A stretch of DNA of 36,363 nt from Candidatus Fermentithermobacillaceae bacterium (GTDB lineage: Bacteria > Bacillota > Sulfobacillia > Fermentithermobacillales > Fermentithermobacillaceae). The DNA is taken from positions 1 to 36,363 of the forward strand of contig DUUV01000015.1 of NCBI GenBank assembly GCA_012841375.1. The letters are read 5' to 3'. Made by a program: the position numbers and the translations under genes. Below the pieces are notes generated by a model. That model saw only the letters and a program-made list of their open reading frames with translations. It had not been told where the DNA came from and ran no database searches. Positions 9,227 through 25,351 of this stretch are shown here, one piece after another; position 1 is the stretch's first letter, and every line of letters starts with the position of its first letter.

Positions 9227-10144
9227 ATGAGCCAACGCCCGGCTGTAAACACCGAGAAACTCACCAAGTATTACGGCAAATCCCGTGGGATAATCGACGT
9301 TGACCTCAGTATTATGGACGGAGAGATCTTCGGCTTCATTGGGCCAAACGGCGCAGGCAAGACCACAACCATCCGGCTCCTTCTGAACTTCATTTTCCCC
9401 ACGGGAGGCAGCGCCACTATCTTCGGCATGGACGCCATACGGGACAGCAAAGGGATCAAGCGCGTGACGGGGTACCTGCCCGGCGACGCCGCTTACTACG
9501 GCGAGCTCCGGGGAAGAGACCTCTTGGAATACGCATCCAGGTTCTATGAAAAGGACTGCCTAGAGCGCGGGAGAGAGCTGGCAGACATATTCGATCTCGA
9601 CCTTGAGAAGCGCATTGAAACTCTATCGCTGGGTAACAAGAAGAAGATCGGCGTCGTCCAGGCACTAATGCACGGGCCCAGGCTGCTCATCCTGGACGAA
9701 CCCACAAGCGGCCTCGACCCACTCATCCAGAAACGGTTCTACGAGGTAATCCTTGAGGAGAACCGGAAGGGAACCACCGTGTTCTGGTCGTCCCACGTGC
9801 TTTCCGAAGTCCAGAAGATGTGCAACAGGGTGGCCATCCTGAAAGAGGGCAGGGTTCTGCGCGTGGAGGAAGTCGAGACGCTACGAAGCAAGCAGCTCAT
9901 GAAGGTTCAAGTTTCGTTCGCCGACCCTAGGGTCGACCTGCCCGAAGAAGTCCAAGGCGTGGTCAACCCGGAGAGGGAAAATGATACCCTCAGGTTTCTG
10001 TTCAGCGGCAACGTGGACTCTCTTGTCAAGGCTCTGGCCAAAACCAATATCAAAGGGTTGCAGATGGAAGAACCGTCTCTGGAAGAAGTGTTCATGCACT
10101 ACTACGAGAGCGACGAACCCGGGCGAAAGGAGGACTCGCGATGA
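9227..10144 (+). CDS. ABC transporter ATP-binding protein (ABC-2 exporter type)
   Basis: Nucleotide-binding subunit of an ABC-2 type exporter, similar in organisation to drug or bacteriocin efflux ATPases (CcmA/BcrA-like). Walker A GPNGAGKTT is at residues 39-47, the signature is LSLGNKKKIG, Walker B plus D-loop is LLILDEPTSGLDP, and the switch His is in SSHVLSE. The C-terminal part of about 90 residues is a regulatory extension typical of this subgroup. An ATG with GGGAG about 10 nt upstream starts the operon. Its stop overlaps the start of the permease (ATGA), so translation is coupled. The substrate is unknown; control by the nearby TetR protein is likely. Confidence 0.93.
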   Translation: MSQRPAVNTEKLTKYYGKSRGIIDVDLSIMDGEIFGFIGPNGAGKTTTIRLLLNFIFPTGGSATIFGMDAIRDSKGIKRVTGYLPGDAAYYGELRGRDLLEYASRFYEKDCLERGRELADIFDLDLEKRIETLSLGNKKKIGVVQALMHGPRLLILDEPTSGLDPLIQKRFYEVILEENRKGTTVFWSSHVLSEVQKMCNRVAILKEGRVLRVEEVETLRSKQLMKVQVSFADPRVDLPEEVQGVVNPERENDTLRFLFSGNVDSLVKALAKTNIKGLQMEEPSLEEVFMHYYESDEPGRKEDSR

Positions 10145-10941
10145 ACATTATTCGTTTTGAGTTCCGGCGAAACCTAAGGTCCTTCCTCATCTGGACTGCC
10201 GCCATCCTCGCCTTCTGCGTATGGATGCTGTCTGTATATGAGTCGTCCTTTTCCGGCCTTGGAGCGGGGATTAACGAGTTCGTCCAATATTTCCCGGAAT
10301 CCATGAAAAAGGCTTTCGGCATCGACCGGCTGGACATCACCACTATCACTGGCTACTTTGGAATGGAGGTCCACCTCTTCATAATCCTTTTCGGCTCCAT
10401 GTACTCCACCCTCCTAAGCTCCAGCCTTCTTTCAAAGGAGGAAAGCGAGAAGACGGTGGAGTTCTTACTGTCGAGGCCGATCACCAGGACGTCCGTGGTC
10501 ACTCAGAAACTGGCGGTGTACGTCATCTACGTGACCCTGTTCTCGATCATCACATGGTCGGTTAGTTACGCGGCGATGCTCCGCTCTGAGTCATCGTTTG
10601 ACAGGGCATCGTTCTGGGCCCTTGGCGGCATGACCTACTTGTCCATTCTGGCCATCGCGTCTCTGGGGTTTCTGGGTTCGGTCTTCGTCACCCGGCACCG
10701 CACGGCCTATTCGGCAGCCCTCGGGCTGGTCCTTGGGCTGTACGCGCTCCAGATCGTATCCGATATCTCCCAGAAAGCGTCGTTCTTGCGATATGTCACT
10801 CCGTTCAAGTGGGCGTCCGCCGCCGACATACTCCCCCGGGGCGGCGTGGACCCTGTCTACGCTGCACTGGCGGCCGGCGTCATCCTTGCCTCGGTCGCAG
10901 GGGCATACAGGGTCTACTCCAAGAAAGACATCGCCGTCTAG
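10141..10941 (+). CDS. ABC-2 type transporter permease
   Basis: Membrane subunit partnering the preceding ATPase. About six hydrophobic segments are visible: near residues 15-31, 75-100, 124-148, 158-182, 189-208 and 236-255. An N-terminal MNIIRFEFRRNLRSF amphipathic stretch is common in ABC-2 permeases. A cytoplasmic LLSKEESEKTVEFLLSRPITR segment is the usual coupling region between early helices. It starts on the ATGA overlap with the ATPase and is followed 18 nt later by the TetR gene. Confidence 0.9.
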   Translation: MNIIRFEFRRNLRSFLIWTAAILAFCVWMLSVYESSFSGLGAGINEFVQYFPESMKKAFGIDRLDITTITGYFGMEVHLFIILFGSMYSTLLSSSLLSKEESEKTVEFLLSRPITRTSVVTQKLAVYVIYVTLFSIITWSVSYAAMLRSESSFDRASFWALGGMTYLSILAIASLGFLGSVFVTRHRTAYSAALGLVLGLYALQIVSDISQKASFLRYVTPFKWASAADILPRGGVDPVYAALAAGVILASVAGAYRVYSKKDIAV

Positions 10942-10959
10942 AGCGAGGAGGGTTCGAGG

Positions 10960-11670
10960 TTGACGCGACGACGCCGGGATTCTAGGCCCGGCCCATTAAC
11001 GCCGCCCTGCGGAGACGCTAGAGATCCCTCCTCCGTAACCGGGACTCGGCCGGGCACTGAAGACAGCCGCCGCCGCATATTGCTGTCTGCGATCCGGGAG
11101 TTCGCGGAGAGCGGCTACACAAAGGCATCCACAAATGCTATAGTTCGGGATGCCTGTACCTCCAAAGGCTTGCTTTTCCACTATTACGGAAGCAAGAAAG
11201 ACCTGTACCTTGCCGCGCTTGAGTACTCCGTCGAGTTCCTGGTTGATTACTTTCTGAAAAACTTAGGCAGGCTGCCGAAAGACCCGGTAGACCGGTTTGT
11301 GGCGTGGGCGAACTTGAAGGTTAGAATGCTCGCGGAAGAACCGCTCATCTACAAAATAACCGTGGGCGGGATTATGGAGGCGCCGGAGGAGATCAGACCG
11401 GAGCTGCAGGCCATGGTGAACCGGGTTGGAGAGCGACTCATGCCCGTATTCCTGAGAGGGATAGACTTCTCCGGACTCCGGAAGGGCATCGATCGGGCGA
11501 AGGCGGTTCAGTACATCCTGTTGGTCTTTGGCGCCTTAGGCGAGAGATACTTGGAAGTGGCGATGAACTCGCCTGACAAAGGCCCTTCCGGATTGCCCTC
11601 GGCCATGGTAGAAATTGAGGAATACGCCGATTTCCTAAAGCATGGGTTATACCGGAACCCGCCGGAGTGA
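10960..11670 (+). CDS. TetR/AcrR family transcriptional regulator
   Basis: Probable repressor of its own operon. The TetR helix-turn-helix lies at about residues 57-82 (TNAIVRDACTSKGLLFHYYGSKKDLY), and the rest is a helical ligand-binding domain with unknown inducer. An unusual Arg/Pro-rich extension of about 35 residues precedes the domain. The TTG start at 10960 is supported by GAGGAGG 8 nt upstream; a later start would remove the extension but no better RBS is visible. Its place in an exporter operon, and the palindrome over the -35 box at 9156-9173, support local autoregulation. Confidence 0.92.
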   Translation: MTRRRRDSRPGPLTPPCGDARDPSSVTGTRPGTEDSRRRILLSAIREFAESGYTKASTNAIVRDACTSKGLLFHYYGSKKDLYLAALEYSVEFLVDYFLKNLGRLPKDPVDRFVAWANLKVRMLAEEPLIYKITVGGIMEAPEEIRPELQAMVNRVGERLMPVFLRGIDFSGLRKGIDRAKAVQYILLVFGALGERYLEVAMNSPDKGPSGLPSAMVEIEEYADFLKHGLYRNPPE

Positions 11671-20970: not shown

Positions 20971-21242
20971 TTGTTGGACAAAGGGATCTCTCCCCGGACC
21001 CTGATGGAGGCGACAAGGGATATACTCTTTATCGACCTAATTGTCGTAATGAATACAGACAAGAGATTCCTTGATAGACCCATGAGCTTTACGCATTAGT
21101 CCAACCGAGAGTGGCGGTGGATTTCCTGGCTTACACTCCTGTGGAGCTATCTAGATTGAAGAAAACGAGTGCTTTCGTGAGAAAAGCCCTTCTGGAAGGA
21201 AAGGTCTTGTATTCGAAGGAACGGACATCGCCCGAGTTCTGA
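20971..21242 (+). pseudogene. Decayed nucleotidyltransferase (MNT/Pol-beta superfamily) fragment
   Basis: Two frames together read as a minimal nucleotidyltransferase. Frame one from 20971 gives IDLIVVMNTDKRFLDRP and stops at TAG 21097-21099. From about 21087 the next frame continues as LYALVQPRVAVDFLAYTPVE and LKKTSAFVRKALLEGKVLY up to TGA 21240-21242. The order (acidic IDL strand, VDFLAYTP strand, RKALLEGKVLY tail) matches stand-alone MNT domains, which often pair with HEPN toxins. The catalytic GSRARG-type loop expected before IDL is missing. A frameshift near 21085 and loss of the N-terminus make it non-functional. No HEPN partner is seen nearby. Confidence 0.75.
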
Positions 21243-21282: not shown

Positions 21283-22149
21283 TTGCTTCCCACTCATGCT
21301 GAGAGTCTTCTCGTTGCCCAGTCCCTCTACAAAGAGTATGACAGACACCCCGTTGTTAGAGATCTGAACTTGGCAATAAGGCCGGGGGAAGTCTACGGAC
21401 TTCTGGGGCCCAATGGTTCGGGCAAGTCGACAACAATCCGGATGCTCACCGGTATTCTGGAGCCCACGTCCGGGAACGTGTCGGTCTCCGGACATGACAT
21501 GAGGCGGGAGCCTGAGAAGGCAAAGGCCTCTCTGGGCTACGTCCCTGATGAACCTGTCCTCTATGAGAAACTCACGGCTTTGGAATTCCTGGACTTCGTA
21601 GGCGAGCTGTACTCGCTGCCGAAATCCTCAAGGCGAGCCGCGATGAACGACACGCTACGCATGCTCGACCTTGAGAACAGGGCCGGCGACCGCATCGAGT
21701 CCTACTCCAGAGGGATGAAGCAGAAAGTCGCCATCTCGGCTGCTCTACTCCACAACCCGCGGGTTCTCATCATGGATGAACCCATCACCGGGTTGGACCC
21801 CATCGCAGTGCGTGTGCTGAAAGGCATGCTCAGGAAGATGGCTAGGTCCGGAGCGGCGATCCTCCTATCGACCCATATCCTGGAGGTGGCGGAACGCCTC
21901 TGCGACAGGATAGGCATTCTAGTAGACGGGTTCCTGATCGCGGAAGGAACCATGGCCGAACTAAGCGCAAAGGCCCCGGAGATGTCTGTGGGCGGGACGA
22001 CTCTCGAAGACATATTCGTGGGACTGGCGGCCGGCGAGGAGCACAAGGACATAATAGCTTCTCTGGAGGCCGAGGAGAAAGAACCTGCAAAACAGGCGGG
22101 AAACGGCGATCTAAGGCCCACCGGACAGGAAAGGAACGTCGGCACATGA
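21283..22149 (+). CDS. ABC transporter ATP-binding protein (exporter with M16 protease operon)
   Basis: Nucleotide-binding subunit of a second ABC-2 type exporter. Walker A is GPNGSGKST, the signature region is YSRGMKQKV, Walker B is VLIMDEPITGLDP, and the switch His is in STHILEV. The C-terminus has an acidic and Gly-rich tail. A TTG at 21283 is chosen since GAGAGGAG lies about 8 nt upstream. A TTG at 21259 is open, but AAGGA is only about 2 nt before it. The stop overlaps the permease start (ATGA). It starts 40 nt after a nucleotidyltransferase pseudogene. Confidence 0.92.
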   Translation: MLPTHAESLLVAQSLYKEYDRHPVVRDLNLAIRPGEVYGLLGPNGSGKSTTIRMLTGILEPTSGNVSVSGHDMRREPEKAKASLGYVPDEPVLYEKLTALEFLDFVGELYSLPKSSRRAAMNDTLRMLDLENRAGDRIESYSRGMKQKVAISAALLHNPRVLIMDEPITGLDPIAVRVLKGMLRKMARSGAAILLSTHILEVAERLCDRIGILVDGFLIAEGTMAELSAKAPEMSVGGTTLEDIFVGLAAGEEHKDIIASLEAEEKEPAKQAGNGDLRPTGQERNVGT

Positions 22150-23900
22150 GAGCCTCCCTGCGCATGCTGTGGATCAGTCTGAAGGTAAGGGTTCGCCTAA
22201 CAAGCCCGACATCGTGGCTCTTCATTGCTATAGCAGCGGTCATTGTGCCGCTGTTCTCCTTCTCTTTGGGAAGCATGGTGGGTATCCCTTCGATGGTGCC
22301 GCAAGACCTTCTGCCGTTCCTCACGGGTTTCCTAAACGTGATCCTTTTCATGCAGATAAGCACTTCTTTCAGTTCGGCTTTCTACCACTTGTACCTATCG
22401 AGGGATCTCCCTCTCCTCTTGGCCTCTCCTTCACGCCCCAGGTCCGTGATACTGGCCAAAATGCTGGAGGTGGCCGGCTCGGGGGTTCTGACCTACCTGG
22501 CTGCGGGAATCCCCTTGTTGGTCGCCTTAGGAAAAGCGTGGTACGCACCTGCATGGTATTACATCCTTGCGGCCGCGGCAGGGCTGCCTTTCGCCATGCT
22601 GCCGACAGTGCTGGCCGTCTTGGCAACTCTTGCGGTGTGCAGGATACTCCCTGCGTACGGAACCAAAGAGATCAGCGCCGCCTTGGGAACGCTGGTCGGT
22701 GGCCTTACGTATTTCTTCTTGCGTGTCGCAGGCTCATCCGAGATGTGGGGTCAGGCCAGAAACCCCTCCCGAGTCTCGCTTTTCTTTGGTAAACTGGGAC
22801 CCTCGTGGTCGCCATCCACTCTCTTGGCCAGGGCCGTCGTTGAAGGTCTGTACGAAAGATGGCTCCCGCTGCTTGCGTCGGGTGTGCTGTTTGCGGGAGC
22901 GACCTTTGGTGTCTTTAGACTCGTTGTAGCGGCGACCGAGAAGGCTTACCTCAGCGGGTGGGCCACATCTCGAGAGGGGCGCAGGGGACGAAAGACCCAT
23001 CCTGTGTTTGACGATCCCGTGCTGGACAGTGCGCCAGGCCGTTTGTCGCGTCCCGCGTTGGGTGACACATCGGACTCCGCCTTGCGTCCTACTCCGGGGC
23101 ACACCGGAGGTCCGGCTACGGATTGCGTCCAACCGGTGAGCAGTGCGATTGGAACGGCAAGAGATCTGGTTCGACCCTCTCGCCTGGCAGTAGAGCTCAA
23201 AGCCCTCTCGGTCGAATCGAAGCTCTTGTTCAGGGACCTTCAGAGCCAATCTCAGCTCTTGTACCTCCTAATCATGATCGTGGCATGGCGGCTCTTCCCC
23301 GGAGGGAACAGGGAGCCTACCGAGAACGGACTGTTTGCCCTGATCCCCTTCTTTTTCCTGGCGCTCAGCGGGTCTAACTCTTGGTCTTTGAAGAACATGT
23401 CTCAAACGGTCCGGATACTCCGGCAGTTACCGTGCGATCCGGCGAGGGTAATGAGGGGAAAGGCCTTCTTCTACGGGATCATCCAAACCGGCTGCATCGC
23501 TTTTCTTGTGGGAGTTCTGAAGACATTTGGACGGTTTAGCGTGAGCGGCTTGCCTGTCCTCGGCACCCTGTGGACTGCCCTGTCCTTTTCCACATCTGCG
23601 ACCACAGTGGCCGCTGCTGCTTACAGACCGGAGGTATCGTCGGCCACAGGGATCCCGAGGCTCGACTTGGGAGCAGGCGTTGCCGCATTCTTGGCAAACA
23701 TAGTCCTCTGCGTGATTTCCGGTTTTCTGTATGTGGGTGCGCTGACCCAGTCGTCTCCTGTCGTTGTCTGGGTGTTCACGGGAATTGCGCTGGCAGTGAA
23801 TGCCGTCGCCTTTGTCATCGCCACGAATATGGCCGGGAACATGACAAGAAGCTCCCCAACGGCAGTGAGCTCCAGCCCGGGAACGGGGGGATCGAAGTGA
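22146..23900 (+). CDS. Large ABC-2 type exporter permease
   Basis: Membrane subunit for the preceding ATPase, 584 residues, about twice a simple ABC-2 permease. An N-terminal half with about six hydrophobic segments (residues 20-255) and a C-terminal half with about six more (about 375-570) suggest a fused or duplicated layout like that of large exporter permeases. The halves are separated by a hydrophilic Pro/Ser/Asp-rich linker at about residues 278-340. The start is on an ATGA overlap. Its last codons overlap the GTG of the M16 gene (GTGA), so all three genes look translationally coupled. The substrate is unknown; the coupled protease hints at a peptide. Confidence 0.85.
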   Translation: MRASLRMLWISLKVRVRLTSPTSWLFIAIAAVIVPLFSFSLGSMVGIPSMVPQDLLPFLTGFLNVILFMQISTSFSSAFYHLYLSRDLPLLLASPSRPRSVILAKMLEVAGSGVLTYLAAGIPLLVALGKAWYAPAWYYILAAAAGLPFAMLPTVLAVLATLAVCRILPAYGTKEISAALGTLVGGLTYFFLRVAGSSEMWGQARNPSRVSLFFGKLGPSWSPSTLLARAVVEGLYERWLPLLASGVLFAGATFGVFRLVVAATEKAYLSGWATSREGRRGRKTHPVFDDPVLDSAPGRLSRPALGDTSDSALRPTPGHTGGPATDCVQPVSSAIGTARDLVRPSRLAVELKALSVESKLLFRDLQSQSQLLYLLIMIVAWRLFPGGNREPTENGLFALIPFFFLALSGSNSWSLKNMSQTVRILRQLPCDPARVMRGKAFFYGIIQTGCIAFLVGVLKTFGRFSVSGLPVLGTLWTALSFSTSATTVAAAAYRPEVSSATGIPRLDLGAGVAAFLANIVLCVISGFLYVGALTQSSPVVVWVFTGIALAVNAVAFVIATNMAGNMTRSSPTAVSSSPGTGGSK

Positions 23901-25351
23901 GAAGCCGCCTTCTACGCCCCAGGGCGATACGGCTCTTCTTAATGGCAGCCACAGTCCTGTCATTATCCCTAGGCGCGATTCCGCAAGAAGTTGCCGCCCA
24001 CTCTTTATTGCCCGGCTACTCTTTGTTCGAGATAAACGGCGTCAAGGTCTACTTCCGAAAGCCACCAAGCGAGGAAAGAGCACAACTTGCCCAAATCGGA
24101 GCGATCATGATGGCCGGCATTGGAAACCAAGAGCCGGATGAGGCCCACTGCGCTCACATGGCCGAGCACATGGTGTGTATGTATCCCGGTCCATCCGGCG
24201 AGTCCGTGTGGTCGATATCGGCAAAGGACTACCAGTTAGGAAGTCCTTTGCCGCTCAATGGACATGTAAGCCTTGACACCACTGAGTGGGCCGTTTCGGC
24301 CGCCCACAGCGATACCCTCCGGGTCCTCACGGCCCTCTTAGGTTCCATGTTCAGAAGCACTCTGGAGTCCGACGAGGCCTTCAAGACCGAGATAAAGCGC
24401 GCTCGCCGTGAAGTAGATGCCATGACCGGAAGCGATATTACGGCCCTCGCCAACAAGATGAAGGCCTCGGCATTCCACGGGACAAGGTACTACGAGACCC
24501 TGTTCGAAACCCCACTACCGGAAGTTACCGCCGAAAAGATCCGGGGCTTTATAGAGAGGGAATACACACCGGCCAGGCTTACGCTGATCATCGCGGCTGA
24601 CGTGGACGAAAGCGAACTCCTTAACCACATTGCGAGATGCCTGGTAGGTATTGACCCGGGGAGAGGACCTGCCGACCACTCAGACGTCTACCTCGATCCC
24701 CCTTCCCAGGCAACGCTTGAAGTCGGAGCAAAGAAGCAATATGCCGGTCTGGCAGTCGGTATCTCGCGGATTCTTCCTGAAGACAGGCCCACCGTCCTGG
24801 CCCTCCTAAACATCCTGACGAGGCGCCTGTATGCAGTCCCCCAAACGGGATCCATCAGGTTTCTCAGGGATTTGCACACGATCTTTGTAGCCCAGAGCGC
24901 TCTTGTGGCAACCTACGGCTACACGGACGCCCGGGGTTCGGACATGAGTTCTGAGGTTCAGCGTTACCAGGAGGCGCTCTCGTCGATCCTGGCGTCTCTG
25001 GCTTCAGACGGACCCAGCATGGAAGAGCTGTCCTACTACGTGATACCCGGCACACCGCGCGTTTCGGTAGATCTATCCTCTATTCCCTATGCCGGGGCGT
25101 CACAGACAGTGTCCACTCTCTTGTACAACGGCCTCATGGAGACCTCAATCTGGGACCGGGCAGAGGCCTACCCAGAAGAAACGCGAAAAATCCTCAAAGC
25201 GGCAGCCGCCAAGTACCTCCCGAACGCCAAGATCACGGTGGTATACCAGAAGCAGCCGTCCAACTCCGGAACAGTGTTGGGGCTGAGCATTGCAGCTCTC
25301 ACTGCGTGCATCGCTTTGGGCGTCTTTTTCTGGCGGAGGGCGACCGTATGA
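23897..25351 (+). CDS. Secreted, membrane-anchored M16 family metallopeptidase
   Basis: Zinc peptidase of the M16 (pitrilysin/insulinase) family acting outside the membrane. Residues 1-35 form a signal peptide or anchor (RLFLMAATVLSLSLGAIPQ, then VAA). The inverted zinc motif HxxEH is intact at H87, E90, H91. E165 and E172, spaced seven apart, fit the downstream catalytic Glu and third zinc ligand. A C-terminal hydrophobic helix (about 460-478) followed by RR anchors the tail. At 484 residues it is a single M16 unit. The GTG start overlaps the permease stop; the frame is open further upstream but that part is permease antiframe. Coupling to an ABC exporter recalls peptide-maturation operons. 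Confidence 0.85.
   Translation: MRSRLLRPRAIRLFLMAATVLSLSLGAIPQEVAAHSLLPGYSLFEINGVKVYFRKPPSEERAQLAQIGAIMMAGIGNQEPDEAHCAHMAEHMVCMYPGPSGESVWSISAKDYQLGSPLPLNGHVSLDTTEWAVSAAHSDTLRVLTALLGSMFRSTLESDEAFKTEIKRARREVDAMTGSDITALANKMKASAFHGTRYYETLFETPLPEVTAEKIRGFIEREYTPARLTLIIAADVDESELLNHIARCLVGIDPGRGPADHSDVYLDPPSQATLEVGAKKQYAGLAVGISRILPEDRPTVLALLNILTRRLYAVPQTGSIRFLRDLHTIFVAQSALVATYGYTDARGSDMSSEVQRYQEALSSILASLASDGPSMEELSYYVIPGTPRVSVDLSSIPYAGASQTVSTLLYNGLMETSIWDRAEAYPEETRKILKAAAAKYLPNAKITVVYQKQPSNSGTVLGLSIAALTACIALGVFFWRRATV

Follow-up and report, generated by a model that had tools for sequence, protein, structure and literature searches.

A PF16949 ABC-2 exporter unit with a predicted outer-face, membrane-tethered M16B metallopeptidase half in rare uncultured Bacillota

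Does a metallopeptidase whose gene overlaps those of an ABC exporter work together with that exporter, and on which side of the membrane? The question is raised by three consecutive genes in the window analysed here, a stretch of 36,363 nucleotides from the metagenome-assembled genome of a Candidatus Fermentithermobacillaceae bacterium. The initial annotation had described them as an ABC-2 exporter coupled stop to start with a secreted, tail-anchored M16 protease. The three ORFs were recovered on the same strand, each with a Pfam match, with ATPase and permease overlapping through ATGA and permease and M16 through GTGA (Table 1). The permease scored 58.5 bits against PF16949 (cut-off 25.7) and is overlapped by the ATPase gene, as in a PF16949 ABC-2-type exporter. 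The triplet is flanked by LUD on one side and SfsA on the other. Values of dN/dS against the congener G003 were approximately 0.10 for the ATPase, 0.26 for the permease and 0.22 for the M16 gene, indicating purifying selection. Because these values are low, and because gene order and overlaps are conserved in G003, the triplet is not a chance arrangement.

Table 1. Features of the exporter-M16 triplet in the window (nucleotide positions; aa, amino acids of the M16 protein).
Feature	Position	Strand	Basis
Ribosome-binding-like site GGAGAGGAG	upstream of ATPase TTG start	+	sequence
ABC ATPase of exporter	21283..22149	+	TTG start; PF00005 E=1.8e-32
Two-half ABC-2-type permease	22146..23900	+	ATG start; PF16949 E=7.5e-16
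M16B-type metallopeptidase half, secreted, C-terminally anchored (predicted)	23897..25351	+	GTG start; PF05193; AF2 model
Signal peptide VRSRLLRPRAIRLFLMAATVLSLSLGAIPQEVAA then H (cleavage site inferred), aa 1 to ~34	23897..23998	+	sequence, hydrophobic segment, charge
Zinc motif H87-M-A-E90-H91	24155..24169	+	alignment with canonical M16B; helix 85-95 in model
E165 and E172, spacing 7; E172 aligns with canonical third zinc ligand	24389..24412	+	alignment
C-terminal membrane anchor and positive tail WRRATV	25274..25348	+	hydropathy 2.40; helix 457-483 in model

Two short frames of 42 and 43 aa precede the ATPase gene (20971-21242) and resemble remnants of a decayed gene; a shorter remnant lies at the same place in the congener G001. 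We had taken these frames to resemble a decayed nucleotidyltransferase, an identity that was dropped when Pfam gave zero matches. Elsewhere in the window (9227-11670) there is a second ABC-2 exporter, with its ATPase overlapping its permease by ATGA and followed by a TetR-family regulator, which is unrelated to the triplet.

The M16 protein scored above the cut-off for PF05193 (28.5 bits vs. 23, E=1.7e-6) and below it for PF00675 (17.1 bits vs. 22.3, E=0.0053). Its AlphaFold2 model (pLDDT 83, pTM 0.79) has the M16 fold: Foldseek matched it to the bacterial M16B structures 3HDI, 3AMI and 7V4Y at a probability of 1.00, with TMt values of 0.72 to 3HDI and 0.74 to 7V4Y. The signal peptide, the HxxEH motif, the pair of Glu residues seven apart and the C-terminal helix claimed for this protein were all present in the sequence and its hydropathy profile. 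There is a single C-terminal transmembrane segment at approximately aa 460-478, and the combination of N-terminal signal, C-terminal transmembrane segment and positive tail was found by hydropathy scanning in every complete member of the M16 subfamily defined below. The window protein is predicted to lie outside the cell, anchored by its tail.

Relatives were found in metagenome-assembled genomes (MAGs) of Candidatus Fermentithermobacillaceae and in other Bacillota or bacterial MAGs. A profile of the window M16 separated its subfamily (more than 600 bits) from ordinary M16 proteins (less than 75 bits) among 398 Bacillota genomes. At the strict threshold the subfamily was present in 7 of the 154 genomes of the class; further holders were G001, with a C-terminal fragment at a contig end, and G214 from the phylum sample. 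The total is 11 subfamily genes in nine genomes counting G001, eight of which carry the zinc-motif region. The subfamily is monophyletic (100/100). No relatives were detected in viral contigs, searched with the single sequence and with the alignment, or in plasmids, and there is thus no sign of a mobile element; PADLOC returned generic ATPase matches only. The exporter-M16 unit is confined to rare uncultured Bacillota and its general reach is limited.

The initial annotation had proposed searching related genomes for the same triplet. In G003 the three genes occur in the same order with the same overlaps (ATPase 86%, permease 73-76% and M16 78% identical), and ATPase orthologues 86-87% identical occupy the same place in G003 and G001. 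The triplet of G001 is split between contig ends, with LUD, ATPase and permease at one and the M16 C-terminus followed by SfsA at another. In a further congener, G002, the block is gone from between the same neighbours: nothing of the ATPase or of the catalytic domain is left, and little of the permease. The scar in G002 (L074, G002:C20:12000-26000, approximately 9900-10400, minus strand) contains the permease C-terminal tail, the M16 leader and the M16 anchor between LUD and SfsA, and a short open frame runs from the leader into the anchor. A different genus of the same family has a fusion: at G007:C5 the ATPase gene overlaps a single ORF of 1146 aa that comprises permease, linker, transmembrane segment, M16 and tail anchor. 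The linker (L012:5346-5470) consists of in-frame 18/36-bp tandem repeats encoding low-complexity Gly-Ala-Ser-Asp sequence between permease and M16. The fusion comes from one MAG, but a frame that stays open through the repeat speaks against an assembly artefact. Three lines therefore support coupling of exporter and M16: the synteny of three congeners, the joint disappearance of the genes from one locus in a fourth, and the permease-M16 fusion.

The fusion also bears on topology. Hydropathy scanning resolved 12 transmembrane segments in each of the G001 and G007 permeases, and fewer segments above threshold in the window copy; both termini of the permeases and their central loop are positively charged. 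With the permease C-terminus in the cytoplasm, followed by one more transmembrane segment, the M16 domain and a transmembrane segment with a positive tail, the fused M16 domain would lie outside, in agreement with the signal peptide and anchor of the unfused copies. A structure model of the G007 fusion folded poorly (pLDDT 59) and gave no usable contacts.

The proposal of a combined system stood in part; both objections foreseen in the initial annotation, unlinked M16 genes and a zinc site that is not conserved, apply to some of the sequences. Tight linkage to a PF16949 exporter was found for 4 of the 11 subfamily genes, in addition to the G002 scar, and the other seven genes are not tied to such an exporter. 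Judged from the sequences, the linkage is one association in one lineage. Outside the triplet clade, the nearest orthologous permease-ATPase pair is that of G013:C256 (ATPase 64%, permease 39%); it lacks a neighbouring M16 gene, which counts against coupling, and the other PF16949 permeases of the class are likewise without M16. One of the PF16949-type sequences (L066, G031:C12, permease match 134835-136496) carries an in-frame TGA and may be a pseudogene, a sequencing error or a frame artefact. The M16 gene of G013 (L016:6327-7793) lies approximately 540 bp after two fused membrane-ATPase ABC exporters of a different type that overlap each other (L016:1856-5786). At G040:C11 an ABC-2 pair of another family (ABC2_membrane_3) lies approximately 545 bp upstream of M16, and at G007:C39 the M16 gene follows an MFS gene by approximately 130 bp; no exporter immediately adjoins M16 at G040:C31 or in G151 and G214. 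G150, from another family of the class, has a zinc-dead M16 (L027:5152-7253, also L069:1-2102) fused to an unrelated multi-transmembrane domain without a significant Pfam match, in a frame that runs off the contig.

The zinc site was examined in the model and across the subfamily. In the window protein H87, E90, H91 and E172 provide HxxEH and a distal Glu, and the model places E172 on helix 160-178 and HxxEH on its own helix (Table 1), bearing out the predicted site. Conservation was incomplete: of the 10 copies covering the motif region, 8 retain HxxEH, and G040:C31 has Asp in place of E172. The two copies without HxxEH are the membrane-fused ones, the G007 fusion being one of them, which read R-M-A-K-D and R-L-S-R-D (R-x-x-[K/R]-D). 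They fall on different branches, one with the window clade (99/99) and the other with another clade (95/87), so that the loss of the zinc motif looks parallel in the two sequences, with the caveat that G150 is a long branch.

The M16B clamshell is built from two halves, as a homo- or heterodimer. The canonical R/Y pair is absent from all 10 aligned subfamily sequences, and no partner half adjoins M16, since every subfamily locus examined has a single M16 gene. The only other M16 genes of the host genome form a signal-less tandem pair (G000:C5), one half with HFLEH and the other zinc-less with REKQSLAY; in the same alignment, heterodimeric M16B proteins such as this pair and L103 have a zinc half without R/Y beside a partner half. 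The window protein would be a zinc half without a visible partner, acting as a homodimer, with another partner or with weak activity. Given the two-half architecture and the lack of an adjacent R/Y-bearing partner half, a homodimer on the exporter would be the likeliest active form. The R/Y pair is present in nearly all M16 proteins except the mitochondrial processing peptidase (MPP) and the bc1 core proteins (PMC12731061). Because MPP also lacks it, the missing pair does not exclude membership of the M16 family.

The remark in the initial annotation that no precursor gene was recognised nearby held. No convincing small ORF was found between LUD and the ATPase gene beyond the decayed frames, after the M16 gene, or in the gaps (540 bp) at the G013 and G040 loci, which answers the small-ORF part of the suggested search. 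By eye, the G040 gap resembles transposase remnants on the minus strand. The unit contains no modification enzyme and no radical SAM gene; a B12-binding radical SAM gene (1438-2862) lies approximately 18 kb away, outside the operon.

Comparison with known systems places the triplet among arrangements that combine proteases and transporters. AlbE/AlbF of subtilosin A are M16B halves of approximately 45 kDa encoded in an operon with peptide-handling genes. AlbEF is cytoplasmic, and is a two-gene heterodimer without secretion signals, whereas the window has one gene with signal peptide and anchor; tandem zinc and partner halves, and a precursor with its modification enzyme, are both missing from the window unit. 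The idea that secreted M16B proteases are generally tied to exporters was rejected, as the neighbourhoods of five further secreted M16Bs from Bacillota contain tandem M16 pairs but lack an attached exporter of this type. The secreted tandem pairs of other Bacillota (L128-L132) share the signal peptide and the M16B half with the window protein, but have zinc and partner halves side by side, a zinc half without C-terminal anchor and no attached exporter of this kind. The premise that exporter-linked M16 proteases are cytoplasmic was incomplete: in fusABCD of Pectobacterium and ydd-pqqL of E. coli a periplasmic M16B shares an operon with an ABC transporter (FusC/FusD, PqqL/YddA; PMC5095587, PMC6793856). 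Those systems have a TonB-dependent receptor, a soluble two-half periplasmic M16B and a fused ABC protein. By contrast, the window unit has a single-half M16 with a tail anchor and a PF16949 ABC-2 permease, the two being fused in one relative, and no TonB-dependent receptor or TonB-like protein was found among the window genes scanned. An extracytoplasmic M16B and an ABC transporter in one operon are already known, and the tail-anchored single-half M16 with PF16949 is a variant of that arrangement. No M16-ABC-2 unit of Bacillota was found in the literature searched, where a single paper named PF16949, and descriptions of fus, ydd-pqqL, NSR/NsrFP, Eep/EcsAB, AlbEF and PttP1/P2 contain no tail-anchored single-half M16, PF16949 partner or permease-M16 fusion.

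Our main reading, to which we give a probability of roughly 0.5, is a three-gene ABC-2 exporter unit with a dedicated, membrane-tethered M16B half at the outer face that cleaves or clears peptides. An ATPase dimer would drive the PF16949 permease, which would move a peptide or peptide-like substrate outward, and the M16B domain, which the tail anchor would keep on the outer face, would cleave or clear the substrate as it emerges, probably as the homodimer proposed above and resembling MPP in lacking R/Y. Trimming or clearing of peptides on the outer side would suit an M16B chamber on an exporter best. The fused zinc-less copy of G007 is probably a docking or substrate-binding half; it could form a heterodimer with the unfused active copy that G007 also carries, by analogy with MPP, which is a heterodimer (PMC11266112). 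A wider idea, which we regard as unlikely, is an exporter class that uses an M16 half-clamshell as outer-face chamber or gate. At least twice, after fusion to membrane parts, the half would have lost catalysis through an equivalent charge swap (HxxEH to R-x-x-[K/R]-D) and become a receptor, which either pairs with an active half encoded separately or retains peptides for export.

Among the alternatives, self-protection is rather unlikely. Antimicrobial peptides would be pumped out of the membrane by the exporter and broken down outside by the tethered protease, in the way that NSR and NsrFP act on nisin. That pair sets a precedent, its operon encoding an ABC transporter alongside a membrane-associated outside protease (PMC5583591), and a dispensable trait of resistance would agree with the patchy distribution, the loss in G002 and the absence of a matching peptide gene; however, NSR is a serine protease unrelated to M16 that works with a BceAB-type transporter and a two-component system, whereas the window unit has a PF16949 permease and no regulator. 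We also find it unlikely that the exporter sends out a RiPP or pheromone precursor encoded elsewhere, from which M16 removes the leader outside. M16B proteases do process RiPPs (AlbEF, PttP1/P2; PMC12731061, PMC10885120), and in the making of linear peptides a membrane metalloprotease, Eep, and an ABC exporter, EcsAB or PptAB, act on the same peptides (PMC7157817). Eep, however, is an intramembrane protease, unlike the window M16 with its one N-terminal and one C-terminal hydrophobic segment, and the absence of a convincing small ORF at the locus or in the G013 and G040 gaps, of a modification enzyme in the unit and of a radical SAM gene inside the operon speaks against maturation.

The loss of the zinc motif in both membrane-fused copies on separate branches, together with the missing R/Y pair, raises a further reading, in which M16 serves the exporter chiefly as an outer receptor, lid or chamber and not as a protease, catalysis being secondary. 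It is improbable: MPP works without R/Y (PMC12731061), and at approximately 25% identity HxxEH and the third acidic ligand persist in 8 members, which implies that metal binding is under selection. That an unrelated exporter and surface protease are simply co-transcribed neighbours is very improbable. Most subfamily M16 genes are unlinked to PF16949 exporters, and in G040 and G013 more than 500 bp separate M16 from the ABC genes in its vicinity; against this stand the one-ORF fusion, the conserved overlaps and the joint loss of the three genes.

The best-known proteases linked to exporters act within the cell, such as the C39 domains of PCATs, or are periplasmic M16 proteins of import systems. 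An M16 half tethered outside the cell with an ABC-2 exporter, together with a natural fusion and a fused pseudoprotease, would offer a handle on how single-half M16 proteins work, and the exporter-M16 unit a handle on how exporters gain outer domains.
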